Shown one piece after another: positions 47,076 through 62,900 of a DNA stretch of 64,000 nucleotides (positions are counted from its first letter, which is position 1; the number at the start of each line of letters is the position of its first letter). The translations under genes and the position numbers were made by a program. The DNA lies in NCBI GenBank assembly GCA_022316685.1, contig JAKJHU010001517.1, positions 56,361-120,360 of the forward strand, written 5' to 3'. This DNA comes from Progne subis subis. Lineage: Eukaryota; Chordata; Aves; Passeriformes; Hirundinidae. The notes below the pieces were generated by a model. The model saw nothing but the letters and a program-made list of their open reading frames with translations. It was not told the DNA's origin and did not search any database.

Positions 47076-47081
47076 GGACAT
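47076..47081 (+). repeat. Left target-site duplication GGACAT
   Basis: Perfect direct repeat with 52532-52537, flanking the whole 5.45-kb provirus. Confidence 0.95.
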
Positions 47082-47435
47082 TGTAGCAGGATTTTTGGAG
47101 ACAGACACAGAGAGGCCTGACAATGCTGGGAAAGTTCTGTTGGTTTAGCACTGTCAAGGACATTGAGCCTGAGAACCAGCTTTTTCCCTCAACCAAGCGT
47201 AAACAGGTAACTGCAGAAGAATGCTTATGCAGATAACACTAGCCAATAGCGAGTAGTAAAATGCCGTGTGAACAGCTTGTGCACAAGAATAATATATGTA
47301 TAAAAGAACCCTGTGTACCTCAATAAATGGAGCATTCACCACTACTTCTGTGAAGAAGGTGTTTGACTCTGGCTGTTCCCCGTGTTTTTGTTTTGTTTTT
47401 GTTTTGTTTTTCTTTCTTTTCAAAAATCATCTTCA
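47082..47435 (+). mobile_element. 5' LTR of the CEPT1-carrying provirus
   Basis: 354 bp from TGTAGCAGG to ATCATCTTCA. Contains TATAAAAG (47299-47306) and AATAAA (47322-47327) only about 16 bases apart, so the R region must begin close to the polyadenylation signal. A T/G-rich stretch near 47380-47420 is U5. The 3' LTR differs by a 21-base internal duplication and scattered substitutions. Confidence 0.95.
47299..47306 (+). promoter_or_regulatory. TATA box of the 5' LTR
   Basis: TATAAAAG, kept identically in the 3' LTR at 52393-52400. It would drive transcription of the provirus, including the captured gene. Confidence 0.75.
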
Positions 47436-47437
47436 AT

Positions 47438-47455
47438 TGGTGCCCGAACTTCAGA
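47438..47455 (+). other. Retroviral primer binding site
   Basis: TGGTGCCCGAACTTCAGA begins two bases after the LTR CA end, the standard position. The TGG start pairs with a tRNA CCA end and TGGTGCCCGAAC resembles known binding sites. The priming tRNA cannot be assigned with certainty from memory. Confidence 0.75.
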
Positions 47456-47715
47456 CCTTGGGGTGACAACCTGGAGGAGAAAATTAGCGGTGGGACGCTG
47501 AGCGGTTGGACGCTGAAGTTGCTGACAGATGCAGCAGCATTGAGGTGAGACCTCCGGAAAACAGCGGACAGATGCTGATCTGCCGAGAGATGCATCAGCA
47601 CTGAGGCAGAGGCTCGCCGTCCTTGCAAAGAGTACGAGGCTGAGCTGGTAAGAGGACCAGGGGGCAGTTTCTTGAAAAAAGGTGGAAGGCACTGAGTACT
47701 CACTTCCCTGCCCCA

Positions 47716-48480
47716 TTGACGACGGCAAGCATGGAATGCGAATTTGCTGCCGCATTGAAGTTATTTATTATTATGTTCTCTGAGAGAGGAAAAACAGTAG
47801 CAGAAAAAGTACTGCAAAAGCTGATTAACTGGGAGCGGGGAAATGGACATTTAACAACTCCGCGGCATTGCGAAGTCGCGGAAGCGCCGCGGGGCCCTGC
47901 CATGCCCTCTGGCCGCCTCCGGCGCCCCGGCACTGTCGCTGGCCGACGCCCGGCTCGCCGCTCCCAGTCCGCGGACCGCCCCCGTCCCTCCGCGGCAGCG
48001 GCTCCATCGTGCCTGCCGCCCCCGCCGCCCCGCAGCAACAGGCAGGACGAGGAGGAAGCGGCCCCCGGAGTCCGCACCGCCCCGCCGCCGCCCCCACAAC
48101 GCTTGTGCCGAGTGCCCCCCTTTCCCGGCTGTGCCCGAAGAGACACCGGTCGACCAGGAGAGGGCAACCCGTGACCCCTGCTGTCGACCACCTTCCCCCG
48201 ACAATGTTCCGCTGCCGAACAAATTAGAGGAGGACCCCGATGATGGAGCAGAACCCCCGGCAGAACCCCTGGCAGAACCCACGACTGGTTTAAAAGAACC
48301 GACTGATCAAATTCAGCCCTCGCCGTGACTCGATGGTCAAAAATTATATGTGATGTTATACTAGAAGGACAGTGGGAACCCGCAGGACACACGGCATGTC
48401 CTGTAGCGTGTCCTGTCGTGTTCAGAGATGGCAATCCTGTGTATGAGCAGCATGAATGGAAAATCTTGCAACAGGCAAAA
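47716..48480 (+). pseudogene. gag remnant: matrix, Pro/Arg-rich linker, start of capsid
   Basis: A frame from 47716 (second Met near 47731) gives a short helical matrix-like N terminus, then from about 47860 a CpG-rich stretch encoding Pro, Ala and Arg. It closes at 48174. A second frame (48131-48328) is acidic and Pro-rich. A third (48325-48480) carries a segment ending YEQHEWKILQQAK, which resembles the entry to capsid in alpha/betaretroviral Gag, where a W-K-x-L helix follows a Pro-rich linker. Capsid is cut off there by an A-rich tract. Gag packages RNA and would be kept by a transducing virus. The frame changes are most simply post-integration damage. Confidence 0.7.
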
Positions 48481-48503
48481 AAGAAAAAGAAAAAAAAGAA
48501 AAG

Positions 48504-48549
<46 letters not shown>
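48478..48549 (+). repeat. A-rich tract at the gag/CEPT1 junction
   Basis: About 70 bases of A with a few G, starting as AAAAAAGAAAAAG directly after truncated capsid and ending just upstream of CEPT1-related sequence. It translates as a lysine run, and its length decides which gag frame continues. A poly-A-like tract at the 5' side of a captured cDNA is unusual. Confidence 0.9.
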
Positions 48550-48553
<4 letters not shown>

Positions 48554-48599
48554 CACCACAACCAACCAGTAAAAGAGCACAGCTTGAAATCTGAAAAGT

Positions 48600-49571
48600 G
48601 CTCCAACAGTGTTAGATTGGATTCATACTGCAGATATCCATTCTCCAGCTTGGACTGCCCCCAATCTGATCACCATCATCAAACTGTTAATAATATATTT
48701 ACAACTCTGTTATTCATGTTACTGCTCAACAGCTTCAAAGGCAGACACCTTCCTGAACATTCATTTGCTTGTGCCTGTGGCATTCCAGTCCCTGAGTGCT
48801 ACAGATGGAAAACAAGCAAGAAGGACAAATAGCAGCACTCCATTAGGAGAGCTTTTTGATCATAGCTGTGATTCACTGTCCACAGTCTTTGTGGTTTTAG
48901 AAATTTGTATTGTTGTGCAGTGGGACACCAACCCTGACTGGATGTTCTTCTGCTGTTTTGCTGTGACATTCATGTTTTACTGCGCACACTGACAGACGTA
49001 CGTCTCAAGAATGCTGTGCTTCGGCATGATTGATGTGGCTGAAGTACAAATCTTCATAATAATCATGAATTTACTGGTAGTGATTGGAGGACCATCTTTT
49101 TAGCAATCTCTGATTCCAAGACTGAATATTCAAGTGGAGTTGGCAAAAATGGATCCACTTTAGCAGGAACAAGTGTCCTCTCACCTTTTCTTCATATTGG
49201 CTCCATGATTGCCTTGGCTGCAATGATCTACAAGAAATCTGCTGTGCAGCTCTTTGAGAGGCATCTCCATCTCTACATCCTGACTTTTAGCTTTGTGTGT
49301 GTCAAGATCACAAATAAACTGGTGGTTGCCCACATGACCAAGAGTGAAATGTGTTTATATGACACAGCATTCATAAGCCCAGCATTGCTGTTCCTTGACC
49401 AAATGTTTTAACAGCTTTACTGATAAGCATATTGTCCTCTGGATTACCCTGATCCTGTCCCTGTTTAACCTGCTCCAATACTGTGCAGCATGTGCAGCCA
49501 GAACTGCTGCCCACCTGCACATCCACGTGTTCCGCATCAAGGGCTGCCCCATGCCCTTAAACCATCACTAA
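48600..49571 (+). pseudogene. CEPT1: Captured intronless CEPT1 (choline/ethanolamine phosphotransferase) cDNA, broken
   Basis: CEPT1 transfers phosphocholine or phosphoethanolamine from CDP-alcohols to diacylglycerol in ER/nuclear membranes. The open frame 48609-48992 includes APNLITII near TM1 and the whole CDP-alcohol phosphotransferase signature DG-x2-AR-x8-G-x3-D-x3-D at 48804-48872, all key residues kept. Similarity continues through [34 protein letters not shown] and [11 protein letters not shown] to a C terminus HIHVFRI...NHH with its own TAA at 49569-49571. The continuous sequence has no introns. Residues and the C terminus fit CEPT1 better than its paralogue CHPT1. The N-terminal part of the host protein is missing or unrecognisable. 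Damage: TGG-to-TGA near 48990 and TGG-to-TAG near 49101, loss of about 27 codons at about 49133, and an extra base near 49408. Confidence 0.9.
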
Positions 49572-50030
49572 GGATGGGAGCTGCCACAGGGGAATGGAAA
49601 AAGAGTTAGGTTTTTACAGGAATGGATGAAGACTTGTAAGAGACAAATGCTAAAAGCAGATGGGAACAAAGTAATTTATAATAATCAATGTTGTATAACT
49701 TTTCTTCTTTGTTATTAGTAACACTTCTTAACTAGCCTCCTGCCTGAGAGTGAATTCTGAGTTCACCCTAGTCAACTCTCCATGTAGTCAACTCTGTTGA
49801 TTCCAAGCCTGGAAAAACATGCAGGAAACAAATGCTCTGTCTTTGTAATTACTTTGATTATTAATTTCACTCTATATAGTGAATAGAACCCCACCAACTG
49901 GAATTTCTAATGTAGTATAATTACAGCTGCAATCTGACTTGCTTTTAATTTTAACATTTCATCATCTCTTAGTGAAATACTTGTTTAGTGTCCACTTGGA
50001 TTTTATTTACTAAGGACTTAAGCTGGTAAA
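49572..50030 (+). other. Probable CEPT1 3' UTR carried with the capture
   Basis: About 460 bases after the CEPT1 stop are AT-rich, have no retroviral motif and lead into viral sequence near 50030. The simplest reading is host 3' UTR co-captured with the cDNA. No poly-A tail is present at this downstream junction, consistent with recombination inside the UTR. The right junction is approximate. Confidence 0.5.
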
Positions 50031-50399
50031 AACCCAAAGATACCTTACTAAGTTGTGTGGCTGCAGCAGCTGCCAAGTAAGAGCCAAGCTGGGGTGGTTT
50101 AACTCGTGCATTGCTGACAAAGCAGTTTCATGCTGAACAGGGTCACGGTAAGCCTTCTGCACGCAGTGAACACCGCAAGCCCTCTGAAGATAAAAAGCCA
50201 GATGGTCAGCTCTGGAGAAGATAAGAGGAACACTTCTGGACAGAGCAGCTGATCTCAAATTCGTCCCAGACCTACAGATCTCCAAGGCCCTGGAATTCAT
50301 CACTCTGAAACCTGCTGGTCAGAGATCAGGACACCTCTGAGGCGAATGGGACAACAGCTGCACCCAAGCCTTTGAGCTTTGCATCTGGACCACAATGGA

Positions 50400-50865
50400 T
50401 GCCAAGTAAATGGACTCGGCCAGCAAGGAAGGAAAAGAAGGAAAAAGAGCATGGATCATCAAGTCCTTGCTGAGACAGCTGGTGGCTCTGGCCACTGGTG
50501 AACAATGCCCTCTTGACCCAGAATGGGTTGTAGCATTTTTGATGGCCAAGGCCCCTTGGGATCATTGGAACTTTCCCAGGACTTGCATGAGTGGCAAGAA
50601 GAAGAGTGTCCTCAGTGTCAGGGAGTAATAGTTATAGAATTGAGCTGAGGAGTTTGTGGTGCACAATTTGAGAGAGAGACACCAAAGCTTTGGCCTGAGG
50701 GTGGTTTGTGTGACCACTGCTATAGTGGTACCCTTGGTGCCTTTTATCAAGCAGCACAGGTAGTGTTGGGAATACCTAACCCTGTTCCTGACGATTTTGG
50801 TGGAGTAGCAAACTGGGGATTTGCACAGACTGTGTGGGCCATGAAGAGAGGGATATGGTAGGTCC
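50400..50865 (+). pseudogene. Unrecognised ORF with paired cysteines upstream of env
   Basis: Two adjoining frames form a possible protein of about 150 residues. The first (50410-50628) is Lys-rich then hydrophobic. The second, read from about 50553, has a CPQC pair near 50607-50618, a further Cys near 50655 and a CDHC pair near 50713, then ends at a TAG near 50863. It has a single in-frame TGA near 50646. The spaced C-x2-C pairs suggest a zinc-binding fold. It overlaps the start of the env frame. I do not recognise the family: it could be a viral accessory gene, an extended env leader or a second captured sequence. Confidence 0.45.
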
Positions 50866-52120
50866 GCATGGTAAGACGTTCTTGCGTGTTGTGTGCCTTT
50901 TGCTCATGGTGTCAACAAGTGTTGCAGGATCTTCTCAACTAGCTCATCAAATTTCGAAGAAAACTAATGTATGGGTGACATTTTCCAAAATGACTGGACA
51001 GGATTCTATTTGCCTTAGCCTGGCCAATCCCCAAGACCCATTCAGAACTTGTTTGATAGGAACACCCCTTTGGAGCCCTGACAATTTTAAAGGTTATGTG
51101 AAAAATGAGACAATGCTGAATTTTACTGTGGCAAACAGCACGGTGTGAATGTCAGGTTTCAGCTGCCCAGGCTGATGGAGGCTGGCAGTGAAAAATTATA
51201 GAGCAACTTAATGATATGCTTACTTCACCACCTGAAGAATTAGACCCCCTTGATTGTATGAATGCCAGCTCTACGAATAGAAGTGAGGGAGGCCGGGTGT
51301 CCTTTGAGCCCCCCACAGAGCAGAGTTTAAATATACATAACCAGAAATGGGCTGCAATAAATTCAGCTTGACTATCTAGTAGCAGTGTACACCAACAACT
51401 CTACTCTAAATGTAATTTGACTGGCAAACCAGGAACAGGAACATTTTTAATATGTGGGGAACACACTTAGAATGGAGTTCCAGCCAGCCCACATGAGGGC
51501 CCATGCTATTTAGGGAAGCTTACCCTGTTTCACCCTAACATAACTGCATTGATGACTTTAGCAAAAGTCACTCAGAGAAAACGTGCCATACATGAGTTGG
51601 ATTGTACAGACATAAAAAGTCCTAAATTCTGGTCCCAAGCTACGACCAGATGTGTCAACATCCATGTTTATACCAGGAGCAACAGCTACCAGAGCAATGA
51701 CCACATTGAAGCAGATGGCATGCTGGACAAATCAGAATTAAATTTAACTGGCCAAATTTTAGATAAGCTATCAGCGGATGTTACCAGTGTTAACCATGTG
51801 GTTTTACAAATGTGCTGTGATTGATTTTTGCTTTTAGTACATAACCATAGGTGTGAAGAGTTTGAAGGAATGTGTTGCATGAACCTGTCCAACCATTCTG
51901 GATCAATTCACAAAAATTGCAATTAATGAAGAACAAATTACATGATTTAAAAGAAAGTGATGATGCATTTAAAGATTAGTTAAGTAGCCTTAGGATTACA
52001 AGATAGCTGAAGTATGTTATTAAACAAATGTTTGTTATATTATTACTTATAGTGGTAAGATTATTAGTACTAAGTCGTGTAATGTCATATATTAAGAATA
52101 TATTGCGTAAGACAATATCT
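50834..52120 (+). pseudogene. Alpharetrovirus-like env remnant
   Basis: A frame from 50834 has a hydrophobic signal-like segment (VVCLLLMVSTSVAG, about 50886-50927), then surface-subunit sequence with Cys and N-glycosylation sites up to 51148. A basic cleavage-like QRKRA lies near 51570-51585. In the frame 51549-51824 a helical heptad region follows. After one TGA (51822-51824) the same frame shows a C-x6-CC motif at 51852-51878, the disulfide motif of alpha/gamma-type transmembrane subunits. A hydrophobic anchor follows near 52013-52100. Layout and motifs fit avian alpharetrovirus-like Env. Several stops and frameshifts make it inactive. Confidence 0.8.
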
Positions 52121-52139
52121 AATGCTTAGCTTGTGCAAA

Positions 52140-52154
52140 AGAAAAAGGGGGAAT
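52140..52154 (+). other. Polypurine tract
   Basis: AGAAAAAGGGGGAAT runs directly into the 3' LTR start TGTAGCAG. Such tracts prime plus-strand DNA synthesis, and this position supports the LTR boundary. Confidence 0.9.
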
Positions 52155-52531
52155 TGTAGCAGTATTTTTGGAGACAGACACAGAGAGGATTGACAGTGAT
52201 GGGAAAGTTCTGTTGTTTTAGCACTGTCAAGGATGTTGAGCCTGAGAACCAAAACACTGAGCCTGAGAACCAGCTTTTTGCCTCAACAAAGTGTAAACAG
52301 GTAACTGCAAAAGAATGCTTTTGCAGATAACACTAGCCAATAGCGAGTAGTAAAATGCTGTGTGAACATCTTGTGCACAAGAATGATATATGTATAAAAG
52401 AACCCTGTGTACCCTCAATAAATGGAGCATTCACCACTACTTCTGTGAAGAAGGTGTTTGACTCTGGCTGTTCTCCATGTTTTTGTTTTTGTTTTCATTT
52501 TGTTTTTCTTTCTTTTCAAAAATCACCTTCA
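52155..52531 (+). mobile_element. 3' LTR of the CEPT1-carrying provirus
   Basis: 377 bp from TGTAGCAGT to ATCACCTTCA. Same TATAAAAG (52393-52400) and AATAAA (52417-52422) as the 5' LTR. A 21-base duplication of the GAGCCTGAGAACC segment near 52238-52274 accounts for nearly all the length difference from the 5' copy. Confidence 0.95.
52417..52422 (+). terminator. Polyadenylation signal of the 3' LTR
   Basis: AATAAA, about 24 bases after the TATA box, matching 47322-47327 in the 5' LTR. Confidence 0.7.
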
Positions 52532-52537
52532 GGACAT
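52532..52537 (+). repeat. Right target-site duplication GGACAT
   Basis: Identical to 47076-47081. This proves one integration event produced the whole element between them. Confidence 0.95.
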
Positions 52538-56516: not shown

Positions 56517-57554
56517 GGAAAAAAAAAAAGAGAGAGAGCCAGAGCCAGGAGACTTGCTCTTTTCTATGTTTATTATCTAGCTTGGCTCTGAGGGAGCTTG
56601 CTTGCTCCCTTGGCAACGCGGAGGAGGAGGTACACACAGCTTCGCTTCACAGCAAAGCTGGGGACTCCCACACCCCTCACGGGCTTTTTCCCCTTGCCGG
56701 GGAGCCGGGGAGTCCGTTTCGCTTCGCTGATCAGGGGTCATCCAGCGATGGGGGACTCCTTCTCAGGTCACGGCGACTAAATGAAGCTGCTTCGGTGGAC
56801 CCCCGTACCCCTTGCACTAGTCTAAAGTGCGACTTCAGTCCTGGATTCTGCTTTGGTTCTCTGCTTTTCAGAGTCTCTCGTTCTTGAGTCGTTCCCAGAA
56901 TTCCAGTGTTCTTTTTATTTGCATATTCAGACGCTATCCAACGAATGGGAGCAGAGATACAGGTAATAAGGTGAATTCTTAATTAACAAACAAGTAAATA
57001 AGGTGATTAATCAATATTAAAACAGGAATAAGGCAAATTCTTTAAACAGAACTAGTATTAACAATCTTAATGGATTTACTTAACAATTAAGTAACTAAAA
57101 CATAGATCATTTGAATAGAACTTGTTTATAACAGTGTTACAAGATGTTAGCAAGTTATGGGTCTTCTAATTCTGGTTCAGCAGGGAATTCTTCTGGGTTG
57201 GACAGTAAGGCTGAGGGGAAGGAACAACCACTCTTGGAAGCCGACACTCACCCCTCCCTTCCCCCCAGGCCGCTGCACTGGGGGATGTTTCCGTCTCTGG
57301 TCACCGGACTAGTTCCCCCAGGGTGGATGTGGCCCCCAGTCAGCTGGTCCCAGCTGACCGGCAGGTGGGGCAGGGACCTGCGGGTCTCTGGCGGTCCATG
57401 GAGATAGCTGCGCCAACTCCGCCCCTCCCTGAGCCCAGGAGGCAGGAGAGTGGGGAACAGCCGCCTTCTCTTTGCACTTTCCCAGTGTTGGGGGAGGCGG
57501 GGGGTCGCAGGCTCTCCCTGCGCCTCTGCTGGATTCTGACTCTGTGACAACACA
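56517..57554 (-). mobile_element. Probable LTR (about 1.04 kb), minus orientation
   Basis: The right end on the minus strand starts TGTGTTGTCACAGAG (57554 downward), a typical LTR start. AATAAA on the minus strand lies near 56562-56567 and near 56914. Left end candidate TGTTGTTC at 56517 is preceded by ATGG, which also follows the right end (57555-57558), a possible 4-bp duplication. GC-rich ends flank an AT-rich centre (56950-57140). No internal retroviral genes. Confidence 0.5.
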
Positions 57555-57558
57555 ATGG

Positions 57559-59480
57559 CATTGCCACAAAAAATTCCCTTGTATGCCCAGAGGATGGGGT
57601 TCTGATAGAGCTTCTTTCAGACCCGGTCCCAGTGGGCAGAGTTCCCATCTCACTCTGTATGGAGCGGGCAGTACTCACTGTTAGTTTCCATGTCACAGGC
57701 AGGATTAGGGGCAGTGCTGGCTGCTCCCCTCCCTACGCCGCCCCCCACATTGGCCGAGCCTTTGGCAGCGGTGCAAGACAGAGCCACGGCTTCACTAGCC
57801 ACGCCCCCCGACACTGCATCCAGCCCTTCCCACAGCTTCTTTCCCCCAGTGCAGCCTGCACTCCTCCCCACTCCAGCGGCTGAGCTTTCAGCGACAGTGG
57901 AGTGCGGCCCCGAGGCTTCTTCCCCTCCCGTGCCACCCCACTGTCAGCTGAGCCTTCGGCGATGGAGCAAGGCAGTGATGTGGCCTCGCTGGCCACGCCC
58001 TCCTCTTCGCTGCATCCCGCCACCCCTGAGGTGTCTTCCCCTCCCACACCGCCTGCGTCACTCCTCCCGCTGGCTGAGCCGGTGGCGGTGGCACAGGGCA
58101 GTCCCGTGGCTTCACAGGCCATGCCCCTCCCTGCATCCCATTCCCTTCTCACACTGGGGGAAGGAAGCCCAGGGCTGGTACTGCTCCGCCCCATGTCAGA
58201 TTCGCATGCCCTCCCGGGGATGGTGCCGGCGCCGGCAAGTGCAAGCCCTGCAGTGTTCACACTTGGCGCAGGTGGAGACACAGCCGTTATGAGGCCGGTG
58301 CCTCCCCAGGGCAGAGGGTCCAAGGCTGGTGGGTCTTTTTCAGCTAGTTTGTGGACTTTACCCCTGTGTCAGGTCAGTGTACATCTGAGAGATATATGCT
58401 ATTTTGGGGGGATGTGAAAGCCAAAGTCAAGGAGATGGGCGATTGTGACTCGGCACATCACCCTCTGGAGGGCAGAGATGGATTTTCTAGCCCTGCTGCT
58501 GAAGAGACTACTGTGGTATCAGGTGGTGTTGAGGTGCCCCCCAGTCAGGCATTTGCCCGTGTTCCTGTGGAGTCCACGGGACAAGATTTAGCAGATGCAG
58601 CAGCCTTCCCAGGAGGCCATCAGGTTTCCCTGTATTTCAAGGAGCAAATTATAACACCCATCAAACTTTATCATGGAAAGCCTTGATGGATCTCCGGGAT
58701 AAGGTTGGAAAATCTGGGCTAGGGTCTGTTGAAGTCATGCAGGTGCTTCAAGTTTTAATGCTGATGCGTTGCCACCCTATGATATCTGGTGTCTGGCTCG
58801 TGTTCTTTTTCAGCTTGTCGAATATGACATCTTTGAATCCAAATAGACTCAGCTGGCAGGCAAAGTCCTAGCGCAGAATGCTGCATTGGGTCAGCAGGAT
58901 CCCAGGCATGTGATTGGAATTGATGAGCTGCTGGGTATGGGCAGTTTTGCTGGTTTTAATAGGTAGGTTGCCCTTGACCTTCTTGTTCTTGACCAGTGCC
59001 AAAGAACGAGCATGGCAGTGTTGATTCAAACCATAGAAATGACTGCTCTGAAGGAATCCTTTGTGACTGTTGTCCAGGGGACTGGGGAACCCTTTCTGCG
59101 ATTTGCAGAGAGGCTGACTGCCTCTGTTGAGAGGCAGGTGGAGGATTTGAATGTGAGGATGTGTTTGCTCAAAACCTTGCGAGAATTAACTGTAATGCCA
59201 AGTGTAGGAGGATCATTGAGGCCCTTCCTGGTGATCCTTCTGTATCGCAAATGGCACAGGCCTGTGCAAAGGTAGGTGCCACAGGTGGTAAGGTGGCTGC
59301 CGTGGCTACTGCTCTGTGGCTGGCCTGGACCAGGCCTCAGGGCAGGCAGCGAAAGCAGGGGAATGCTCAGGCCAGCAAGAAACAGAAAGTAAGTACAGAG
59401 GGTGACAACTCCCTTGTTTTTGTGCAGCTGGTGTGGAAGGCCGAATCATACCATTAACGTCTGTAAGGCAACAGTTCATG
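57559..59480 (+). pseudogene. Class II gag remnant with repeat-rich linker, capsid and CCHC box
   Basis: The 5' part (57690-58420) encodes a Pro/Ala/Ser-rich linker built on a 126-bp repeat. Capsid sequence is spread over frames 58351-58871 and 59012-59275. The major homology region (GEPFLRFAERL) is near 59082-59115 and its continuation (ALPGDPSVSQMAQACAKV) is in another frame at 59221-59274. A nucleocapsid zinc knuckle C-x2-C-x4-H-x4-C is intact at 59423-59464, although the frame around it is broken. Gag assembles the particle and binds RNA. Frameshifts rule out function. Confidence 0.8.
57753..58150 (+). repeat. 126-bp minisatellite in the gag Pro-rich region
   Basis: Four GC(C/T)GAGC starts occur at 57753, 57879, 57947 and 58073. 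Spacings are 126, 68 and 126. 126 is 42 codons, so full units keep the frame; the 68-base unit does not, which moves the open frame at this point. Units share a Leu/Ala-Glu-x-x-Ala motif followed by Pro/Ser-rich sequence and are diverged. Confidence 0.75.
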
Positions 59481-59900
59481 CTAATGGTCAGCCTTTGTCA
59501 AGCTCGGGAAATGGGAGGCAGAGCGAGAAGGGGTGATGTGCTCAGACACAAAATTCTTTCCAAGCCCCAGAGCCAATGGACATCTGCTTGGCCGGCTTAC
59601 AGCCAGCACCTGTGGCTCAGCAGGTCTTGATGCCTGCACAGCAGCAATGGTTGTCTTAGACTCTTATGAAGTACACAAAGTTCCCCTGGATGGCTTTGGT
59701 CCTGTGGGTGGAGGCATGAGTGCTTTCCTCATGGGGAGGTCTGGTGCCACTGCCCAGGGTATCATGCTGCTTCTGGGACTCATCGATGCAGATTTTACAG
59801 GACAAATTTATGCTATGGTTACCACACCCACCCACCCCCGTCACTATCCCCAAAGGGACCAGACTTGCTCAACTTGTGCCTTTTAAGTCTTCTGTTCACA
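59481..59900 (+). pseudogene. Class II dUTPase domain remnant
   Basis: The frame 59533-59886 contains dUTPase motifs in order: SAGLDACTA near 59617-59643, GPVGGGMSAFLMGRSG (substrate-binding and Ser-containing motif) near 59699-59746, and LIDADFTGQI (hairpin motif) near 59779-59808. Betaretroviral dUTPase is fused ahead of protease and limits uracil incorporation into viral DNA. Spacing of motifs is normal. A frame change just before IPKGTRLAQLVPF (59840-59880) breaks the C terminus. Confidence 0.85.
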
Positions 59901-60330
59901 GAGCAAAGAACTGGTTGCGGGAAACAGCGGCTTCGGATCCGCTGGGCCACCTCAGGTTCACTGGACCTCTCTCCTGTCCAAAGACCGTCCTGAGAAAGTG
60001 TGTACCCTGTCCATCCCTGGTGTGACACCATCAGAGATCTGCCTCCGTGGGCTCCTCGATACTGGTGCGGACATCATGATTCTCTCTCTTACCACTTGGC
60101 CCATGGAGTGGCGGTTGGATTCGGTGCAGATGTCTGTCGCAGGGTTGGCAGGAACAGTGCAACGCTACATGAGCCAGAGGCCTGTGATGATCATGAACAC
60201 AAAGGGACAAACAGCCATGGTTTGGCCTCATGTTACAGCCGAAACTCGTGTCAGTCTCTGGAGGACGGATGTTCTGGCCAGGTGGGAGGTGCACATTGGG
60301 ACGTATTTTTGATGAGGGTCACTGTGATGA
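59901..60330 (+). pseudogene. Class II protease remnant
   Basis: The frame 59998-60312 holds the retropepsin active site L-L-D-T-G-A-D (Asp codon 60058-60060) followed by a hydrophobic strand and a long body that ends in a stop at 60310-60312. It follows dUTPase directly, as expected for a betaretrovirus-like pro gene. The glycine-rich C-terminal part is not clear. Confidence 0.75.
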
Positions 60331-61250
60331 AGGGTGAAGAGTGTCCTGTGCCTCCTATACGGTGGCTGGTAGACAAAACTGTTTGGGAGAACCAGTGGAC
60401 CCTCTCCCAAGACAAACTAGTAGCCATTTCTGATTCAGTTCAGGAGCAGTTGGACCAGGGTCATCTGGAGTCTTCTACCAGTCCCTGGAACACTCCTGTC
60501 TTCTGCATCAAAAAGAAATCTGGGAAATGGAGGTTGTTACAAGACCTCAGGAAAGTCAGTGCCATGAGTGAAAGTATAGGGACATTGCAGGCTGGTATGT
60601 CATCACCCGCCATGCTTCCCACAGATTGGCCAGTCCTCATTGTGGATCTGAAGGACTGCTTCCTTACAATTCCTTTGCATCCCAATGACAGACAAAAATT
60701 TGCTTTCTCAGTGCCAGCTATTAACAATGCTGAACCTGCACAGCGATATCAACGGAGGGTTCTTCCCCAGGGTTGTCGCAACTCACCAGCCATATACCCA
60801 TGGTACATGGCCCGAGCCTTGTCTGGAGTTCGCAAGCAGTTTCTGGATGCTGTATGGATGACATATTGATGGCTGCGTCCACCCAAGATGAATTGCTGAG
60901 GGTACAGCCTCAGTTGATCAATGCTTTGCATTCTCATGGACTGCAGGTGGCTCCAGAAAAGGTTCAAAAACCACCTCCTTGGAAATATTTGGGAGTCAAA
61001 ATTTTGGAATGAACGGTTCAACACCAAGCTGTGCAATTTCTGCATTCGGTGAAGACACTGAATGATACCCAGAAACTTGTGGGTGTCATCAGTTGGTTGC
61101 CTCCATATCTGGGACTGACCATGACACAACTGTCTGCTTTGTTTGATTTGTTAAAGGGAGACTGATTTGAAGTCACCTCACATTGACCCTTTAGGCACGT
61201 CAGATGCTGGAGGAGGTTCAGCAAGCTGTTTCTGATTGCCAAGTTTATTG
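60331..61250 (+). pseudogene. Class II reverse transcriptase remnant, altered active site
   Basis: The frame 60000-60869 carries fingers/palm motifs: K-S-G-K-W-R-L-L-Q-D-L-R-K, then I-V-D-L-K-D-C-F and V-L-P-Q-G-C-R-N-S-P. The catalytic box reads CMDD (60851-60862), so the first residue of the family's YMDD is changed to Cys (TAT/TAC to TGT). Frame 60773-61012 continues the palm with WKYLGVKILE near 60979. Stops at about 61010 and 61163 follow. This copy is not expected to be active. Confidence 0.85.
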
Positions 61251-62060
61251 CACTGACCCCTCCGCTGATGTCACTGTTTTCATTACCACTCTAGATCTGC
61301 ATCCCACAGGCATCATTGGCCAATGAAATGCAAAATAGTCAGATTCCTTGCACACCTTGGAATGGGTCTTCTTGCCCCATCAGCCGCAGAAGACGGCAAC
61401 TGCATTGTTTGAGCTGATTGCTCGTTTGATAATCAAATGCCAGCAATGGTGTTTGCAGTTAATGGGGGCGGATCCCGCAAAGAACATACTCCTGGTACAG
61501 GGGGAGGACTTTGACTGGAGCTTTGCAAACAGTATTTCTCTGCAAAGTGCTCTGGAAAACCTTTCTTGGCAGATCACTTACCTGCCCAGCCACAAGCTAC
61601 TGCAGGTGGCAAAATTTGCAGAAATTTCTTTGCAGCCCAAAATTAGTCAGGAGCCTGTCCATGGACCCACCATCTTTGCTAATGGTTCAGGGAGGACAGG
61701 CAAGGCCATTGTTACTTGTAGGGTAAGTGGCAGGTTCTGGAAGGTCATGAGGATGGGTCAGCCCACTTGGTTGAATTGAGGGCTGCTGTCATGGCATTTC
61801 AAAGATTTTCCCAGCAACCTTTCAATTTGGTCACAGATTCTGCCTATGTGGCCGACATAGCACAGCGGCTGGGTCATTCAGTTTTGAAGGAAGTCAGCAA
61901 TGCTGCTTTGTTTCATTTGCTGAAGACCCTGTGGTGTGCCATTCAGGTCCAAGTTCATCCATACTACATTCTGCATGTGAGGAGTCATACCAATTTGCCA
62001 GGGTTTGTAGAGGAAGGTAACATGAGGGTTGACAAGTGGCTAACCCAGCGTGGGTAGCAC
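61251..62060 (+). pseudogene. Class II RT connection and RNase H remnant
   Basis: The frame 61348-61779 covers the connection domain and the first RNase H motif, read as FANGSG near 61675 where F-T-D-G-S is expected, so the first catalytic Asp is replaced by Asn. The frame 61767-62057 has the downstream VTDSAYVADI motif near 61831-61860 and a His-containing HVRSHT near 61974. A frame change near 61770 separates them. Confidence 0.8.
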
Positions 62061-62900
62061 CTCAGCCTCATACACTCATGCAGGCCAAGGCATCGCATGG
62101 GTTTTTCCATCAGAACGCACATACCTTGCAGAAGCAGTTTCAGTTGATGCCAACTGAGGCCCATGACATTGTCGAGTCGTGTGACGACTGTCACCCGCTT
62201 GCTGTGCCTTTGCTGGCAGGGGTAAACCCCAGAGGCCTTAGGGCCTTGGAGATTTGGCAGACTGATGTCATTCAAGTTGCTGAGTTTGGCCAGCCCAAGT
62301 ATGTGCATGTCACAGTCGACACTTTCTCCTCTGCGATGTGGGCTTCTGCTCACACTGGAGAAAAGACCCGCGATGTCATTGCCCACTGGAGGCAGGCCTT
62401 TGCCGTCCTAGGCATACCCTCTGCTGTGAAGACCGACAACGGTCCTGCTTATGCCTCACAGAAGGTGCAGCAGTTCCTGCAGTTGTGGAGCGTGTCACAC
62501 AAGTTTGGTATCCCTCATTCTCCAACTGGTCAAGCTATTGTAGAATGTGTGCATGGTACTCTAAAGTGGGTTCTTCAAAAACAAAAACAGAGAATGCAGG
62601 GTGTAACCCTGCACAGCCGGTTGGCAAAAGCTTTGTATACCATCAATCACCTTACATTGCCGTATAATTCCAATAATCCTGTCATTTTGAACCATCATCT
62701 TTCGTTACAGGCTTTGGACGAGATGCATCAACCTTGAGCAAAGTTTGAGTGCAGAATTTAGTCACCAAACAGTGGGAAGGTCCCTATGACCTTATCGCTT
62801 TGGGACACGGGTATGAATGTGTATCCACAGATACTGGGTTACACTGTGTACCTGCAAAGTGTGTTGGTCCTGACCTGCAACTGCAAAGGGGATATCTGGT
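62036..62900 (+). pseudogene. Class II integrase, DDE triad intact, long open frame
   Basis: A 233-codon frame (62036-62737) holds the N-terminal zinc-binding H-x3-H (HQNAH, near 62111) and CDDC (near 62183), then the catalytic core with Asp 62264-62266 (WQTD), Asp 62435-62437 (TDNGPAY) and Glu 62543-62545. The last two give the D-x35-E spacing. After the stop at 62735-62737 the C-terminal domain (WEGPYDLIALG) continues in another frame to about 62910. This is the best preserved domain of the element, but without the rest of pol it is a pseudogene. Confidence 0.87.

Follow-up and report, generated by a model that had tools for sequence, protein, structure and literature searches.

How did an intronless copy of the host gene CEPT1 come to lie between two retroviral long terminal repeats (LTRs) in Progne subis subis? 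The window analysed here is a stretch of 64,000 nucleotides (contig JAKJHU010001517.1, positions 56,361 to 120,360, forward strand), and the whole provirus occupies its positions 47082-52531. We consider it highly probable that a multi-copy family of endogenous retroviruses (ERVs) lacking pol captured a polyadenylated host CEPT1 mRNA, and that the window element is one copy of that family. An earlier note, made from the letters of the window, had described two LTRs, a primer site, a polypurine tract and a GGACAT duplication enclosing the start of gag, intronless CEPT1 sequence and env, with no pol. Direct reading and alignment of the LTRs bore out the outer features. The interior was also as described: seven introns are absent, and no pol family was matched in the nine window open reading frames (ORFs) scanned. 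The extent of the CEPT1 segment, given in the earlier note as 48550-50030, was corrected to 48644/48648 to about 50148/50154. The features of the element are as follows.

47076-47081, strand not assigned: 5' target-site duplication (TSD) GGACAT, by direct reading
47082-47435, plus strand: 5' LTR, the same as the 3' LTR at 334 of 354 aligned sites
47438-47457, plus strand: primer-binding-site-like TGGTGCCCGAACTTCAGACC, by direct reading
47731-47860, plus strand: start of gag, an ORF with a matrix (MA)-like N-terminus, MECEFAAALKLF..., without a Pfam match among the window ORFs
47861-48643, plus strand: remaining gag to the first capsid (CA) residues, about 180 nt shorter than in most mapped copies
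48477-48549, plus strand: A-rich tract, an expanded A6 in gag CA codons, differing in length between copies
48644-50154, plus strand: captured CEPT1 cDNA, codons 81-416 and about 580 nt of 3' untranslated region (UTR), 7 introns absent
50155-50843, plus strand: segment between CEPT1 and env, absent from copies L054, L057 and L013
50844-52140, plus strand: broken gp85-like env remnant, from ORFs and profile matches, with CEEFEGMCC near the start of the transmembrane part
52142-52154, plus strand: polypurine tract AAAAAGGGGGAAT, by direct reading
52155-52531, plus strand: 3' LTR, paired with the 5' LTR
52532-52537, strand not assigned: 3' TSD GGACAT, by direct reading

The LTRs are 354 nt (5') and 377 nt (3') long, have TG...CA ends and differ by 20 mismatches over 354 aligned sites (Kimura two-parameter distance, K2P, 0.059). 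The 5' LTR is closely followed by the primer-binding-site-like TGGTGCCCGAAC and the 3' LTR directly preceded by AAAAAGGGGGAAT, with a perfect 6-bp GGACAT on both sides of the provirus. Between these ends the CA part of Gag passes into CEPT1, with env no more than about 0.7 kb further on, both in the window and in the env-bearing copies. The start of gag is conserved at about 82-95% across other copies. Scans of the window with Rfam (gathering threshold) and for tRNAs gave no matches.

To identify the cargo, three pieces of the insert were compared with known proteins; human CEPT1 (PDB 8gyw) was the top match for each (E 8e-41, 3e-45 and 2e-13). CHPT1 was rejected as the source, CEPT1 having scored ahead for three pieces. 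With residues 28-113 of human CEPT1 as query, the parent gene was sought in the bird's own genome, 2896 contigs amounting to 1.17 Gb, and its first coding exon was found on contig C1358 with 86% amino-acid identity. The parental gene there is intact, with 8 coding exons encoding 416 amino acids. Alignment to this CEPT1 of the same species, as the earlier note had proposed, identified the insert as the spliced parent mRNA: it is colinear with the spliced parent across 7 exon joints, from codon 81 to the stop and about 580 nt of 3' UTR, in two matched stretches of 87.8% and 91.5% identity. The first 80 codons are absent. Relative to the parent, the window insert carries an 8-nt deletion, a stop at W198, an internal gap of about 76 nt and small indels. 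Host-gene-transducing retroviruses usually, not necessarily, carry a growth-promoting cargo; here that feature is lacking and the cargo is CEPT1.

We then looked for further copies in the same genome. The CEPT1 segment as a DNA query (40 of 240 candidates scored) gave 49 matched stretches in 40 places. Human CEPT1 residues 28-113 (105 of 105 scored) gave 95 matches, the parent and CHPT1 included, and the later part of CEPT1 (150 of 472 scored) gave at least 151. A gag pattern just 5' of the joint with CEPT1 matched 190 times in the genome and its control 0 times. The matched places in these searches include many duplicates, and a minority of them were inspected. By their 5' flanks, 27 of the 40 places fall on one site and two on another, seven are single and four were not judged, so there were at least nine separate integrations. 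Perfect 6-bp TSDs flank the window provirus (GGACAT), L012 (TTATGT) and L022 (CTTCCA). The element thus integrated as a retrovirus at several sites, and the search for other CEPT1-bearing copies suggested in the earlier note found the cDNA at many loci instead of one.

Copying of DNA, not of viral RNA, could in principle have made the family from a single locus. This is true of the 27 places with a common flank, and these are a large segmental amplification. For the family as a whole the different TSDs refute it, and the at least nine distinct 5' flanks and the location of copies on several multi-megabase contigs also make duplication an extremely unlikely origin. The 27-place group (L014-L020, L023-L026, L028, L030-L037, L040-L045 and L047, mostly on small contigs) consists of one CEPT1 provirus with closely similar flanks (96-100% where printed), which is 3'-truncated in the 12 longer slices; in L014 its neighbour is an ERV pol on the opposite strand, with RNase H and integrase. 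L013 and L021 have a common 5' flank (92-94%), and the interior of L021 is nearer to the duplicated group, possibly through gene conversion or mosaicism. The copies follow one layout of LTR, leader, gag MA, gag and CEPT1, then env and LTR unless truncated. In several, sequence was inserted or lost later. The gag of L022 holds a 1.5 kb insert.

All 20 copies aligned over the joint between gag and CEPT1 have it at one position, with point differences nearby; they comprise a set of 12, among which are three duplicates of a single site as well as the L013/L021 pair, and a further 8. This constancy points to a single capture, followed by retroviral multiplication. In L054 a native ORF of 357 amino acids spans the joint, matching Gag_p24 (E 3.5e-6) and then CDP-OH_P_transf (E 1.9e-10). 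The poly(A) tract at 48477-48549 was rejected as the capture joint: it is A6 expanded within gag CA codons, and across 21 copies between 4 and 98 nt separate gag from the next conserved base there.

The 3' joint is more varied. Among 28 mapped copies, four do not pass from CEPT1 into the segment of about 690 nt seen in the window, which could be a later recombination. In three of the four (L057, L013 and L061) the CEPT1 3' UTR extends to the gene's polyadenylation region, with AATAAA or a close variant, and an A-rich run comes after it; in L054 the end of the UTR is missing and the A-run is 18 nt long. At this position the parent contig has A6 only. In L054, L057 and L013 env starts directly after the run. 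The CEPT1 3' end and A-run kept by the four copies, joined directly to env in three, point to template switching onto a polyadenylated mRNA. A pattern for this 3' end matched nine times in the genome against two for the control, and six of the nine matches lay, by eye, a short way downstream of CEPT1 copies already known, L057 and L013 included.

The A-run at the end of the cDNA in four copies is also what a long interspersed element (LINE) would leave. A CEPT1 processed pseudogene made by CR1 or another LINE could have entered a provirus that had already lost pol, and then have been transcribed and multiplied with it. We consider this very unlikely. No direct repeat or target duplication flanks the cDNA in L054 or L057, the two copies tested. 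The insert lies between gag CA and env, where more sequence is missing than the cDNA accounts for, so that a prior deletion at the same point would be needed. Taken with the A-run, the fact that the cargo stands in place of pol and the remainder of gag favours template switching onto a mature mRNA over LINE insertion.

Capture of a polyadenylated mRNA, our preferred explanation, probably proceeded as follows. CEPT1 mRNA would have been co-packaged with the genome of a helper virus. Reverse transcriptase, copying the viral RNA from its 3' end, would have jumped to the CEPT1 poly(A) tail on reaching the start of env, copied the mRNA as far as codon 81 and switched back into gag; we infer two template switches from the two junctions. 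The rest of gag and pol would thereby have been replaced, with the LTRs, leader, start of gag and env kept. A helper would then have multiplied the chimera in trans, its CEPT1 part decaying as the family spread.

Several results weigh against this explanation. Most mapped copies (24 of 28, 12 of them duplicates of one site) enter the window-type segment and so carry the later 3' form, and in L061 the A-run is followed by sequence other than env. Perfect TSDs were not found in L009, L010 or L013, and none was seen by eye in L053 or L055. A pol-bearing helper with the same LTR, which the earlier note had proposed to look for, was not found in the gag-pattern and env searches of the bird's genome. 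Of the gag-pattern loci (about 100 of the 190 being listed), five that were, by eye, absent from the CEPT1 matches listed were read, and all five carry CEPT1. The env query (40 of 164 candidates scored) gave 17 of 40 places without CEPT1 nearby among the matches listed, by eye. When four of these were read in 0.9 kb slices, one had CEPT1 and the other three had neither CEPT1 nor a recognisable pol. Finally, the changes common to at least 17 of 19 copies, a class which mixes parent-lineage and stem changes, comprise 3 nonsynonymous (N) to 5 synonymous (S), and may reflect a phase of early constraint.

Two other ERV-like blocks were observed in the window. Positions 57200-62734 hold matches to RVT_1, Integrase_Zn and rve and a gag-like translation; this ERV, at 57-63 kb, was rejected as the helper since tblastn shows no gag or env similarity. 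Positions 351-2622, perhaps a third ERV remnant, contain ORFs in which a protease-like LVDTGAQ motif was seen by eye, without a Pfam match, and in which RNase H-like matches lie under the cut-off (E 1e-4). With CEPT1 and env queries, IMG/VR gave no confirmed relatives, in scans that may omit the bird's own genome.

We next asked whether the cargo behaves as a gene or as a passenger. The W198 stop and the 8-nt deletion are both missing from L054, L056 and L057, and L063 resembles this group by its translations. L061 has the stop and not the deletion, and the remaining aligned copies have both; a 56-column gap is common to 9 of 12 alignment rows. L013 combines the mRNA-type 3' end with later lesions. 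The order of lesions is as expected if the cargo decayed step by step while the family spread, with some mosaicism. Changes on the stem of the late copies (those in 12 or more of the 14 late copies and in no more than 1 of the 5 early ones) are 8 N to 1 S, and private changes are 117:51 (N:S) in late and 77:27 in early copies against a random expectation of 2.4-2.65. The late figures, from a set that includes the related L013 and L021 and the short row L060, therefore give no sign of protein constraint in the late family. Since the lesions are stepwise and the changes mostly fit neutral drift, the cargo looks like a passenger, a reading that we prefer to that of a selected gene.

A cargo that was once useful would be a Gag-CEPT1 fusion enzyme whose changes to membrane lipids were favoured by selection until decay set in. 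The open frame of L054, which natively joins Gag and CEPT1 through residue ~214, would suit such an enzyme, as would the lack of both stop and deletion in L054, L056 and L057, with L063 similar by its translations, and the 3 N : 5 S of the widely shared changes. The first 80 codons are missing from the cDNA, though, and L056 (with a 1-nt gap at codon 198 among its breaks), L057 and L063 have other frame breaks. Later lineages spread while carrying the stop and the deletion, and their stem shows the 8 N : 1 S already given. We therefore regard a useful cargo as unlikely. Its more specific form, in which the lineage once encoded a fusion that changed phospholipid synthesis at the assembly site and was selected early, the decayed copies being the tail of that phase, we think distinctly unlikely.

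The age of the family was estimated from LTR pairs. Besides the window, K2P distances were 0.025 (L012), 0.034 (L022), 0.039 (L010) and 0.042 (L009), with 0.084 for L054 from part of the LTR; L053, L055 and L013, at 0.12-0.16, may be mosaic. At an assumed substitution rate of 2e-9 per site per year, the first six copies span roughly 6-21 million years. In a CEPT1 tree of 12 rows the inner branches were short and only two of the nine had good support; end branches beyond the duplicated group measured 0.023-0.044.

As to retroviral class, the match of the window env to Avian_gp85 is weak and under the cut-off (E 3.5e-4), and those of the relatives L009 (E 3e-12) and L010 (E 2e-12) are above it. 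By eye, we take CEEFEGMCC to be a CX6CC motif. It is env, and no other part, that suggests an alpharetrovirus; the usual primer of alpharetroviruses is tRNA-Trp. Relatives of the 50155-50843 segment contain an ORF upstream of env with CxxC pairs (CPQC, CGVC and CDHC), the L010 version of which gave no family match above the cut-off. The earlier view of a fossil host-gene-transducing retrovirus stands in that a spliced mRNA lies between viral sequences and its copies reached new sites, with the alpharetroviral label drawn from env. Neither kind of result that the earlier note had named as refuting it was seen: the insert is free of introns and, in the two copies tested, of target duplications of its own, and it occurs at more than one locus.

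The family is a fossil of retroviral capture of a host mRNA, in which the mRNA 3' end is visible in some copies, the intact parent lies in the same genome and the decay of the cargo can be followed in stages from copy to copy. How such a capture works, and what becomes of a non-oncogene cargo, can therefore be read directly. In this way, and with no LINE activity, a genome can acquire many intronless copies of one gene. Among the matches listed in openly accessible literature, no ERV-captured CEPT1 was found.

Transducing retroviruses carry spliced host cDNA in place of viral genes, keep their LTRs, may fuse the cargo to Gag and depend on a helper. The CEPT1 element is like the oncogene-transducing viruses of the Rous type in its spliced host cDNA, lost viral genes, retained LTRs, possible Gag fusion and expected helper. 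It is unlike them in that its cargo is a lipid-synthesis enzyme, fixed in the germ line in many copies and apparently a passenger. PMC4997597 and PMC515179 describe host-gene capture via co-packaged, chimeric or read-through RNA; the 3' joint of the CEPT1 element lies at an A-run, in contrast to the chimeric or read-through intermediate believed there. LTR-mediated retroposition (Tan et al. 2016), as described in the review PMC5408686, is template switching between LTR-element RNA and cellular mRNA. Template switching is common to both; here the chimera became an amplified family and kept the A-run of the mRNA end. The same review describes maize Bs1 as an LTR element with transduced cellular gene sequence; both join LTRs to a cellular gene, although Bs1 is a plant element with other genes and is likened here by description only. 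According to PMC4299795, crocodilian CrocERV29 captured KIT-ligand and CrocERV31 nectin3, and there too an ERV took a host mRNA and multiplied. As reported there, the captured gene took the place of env or cost no ERV domain, and is under purifying selection, whereas in the CEPT1 element the rest of gag and pol was replaced and the cargo decays. Capture of host genes by ERVs is thus already known, and the capture of CEPT1 adds a new form to it.

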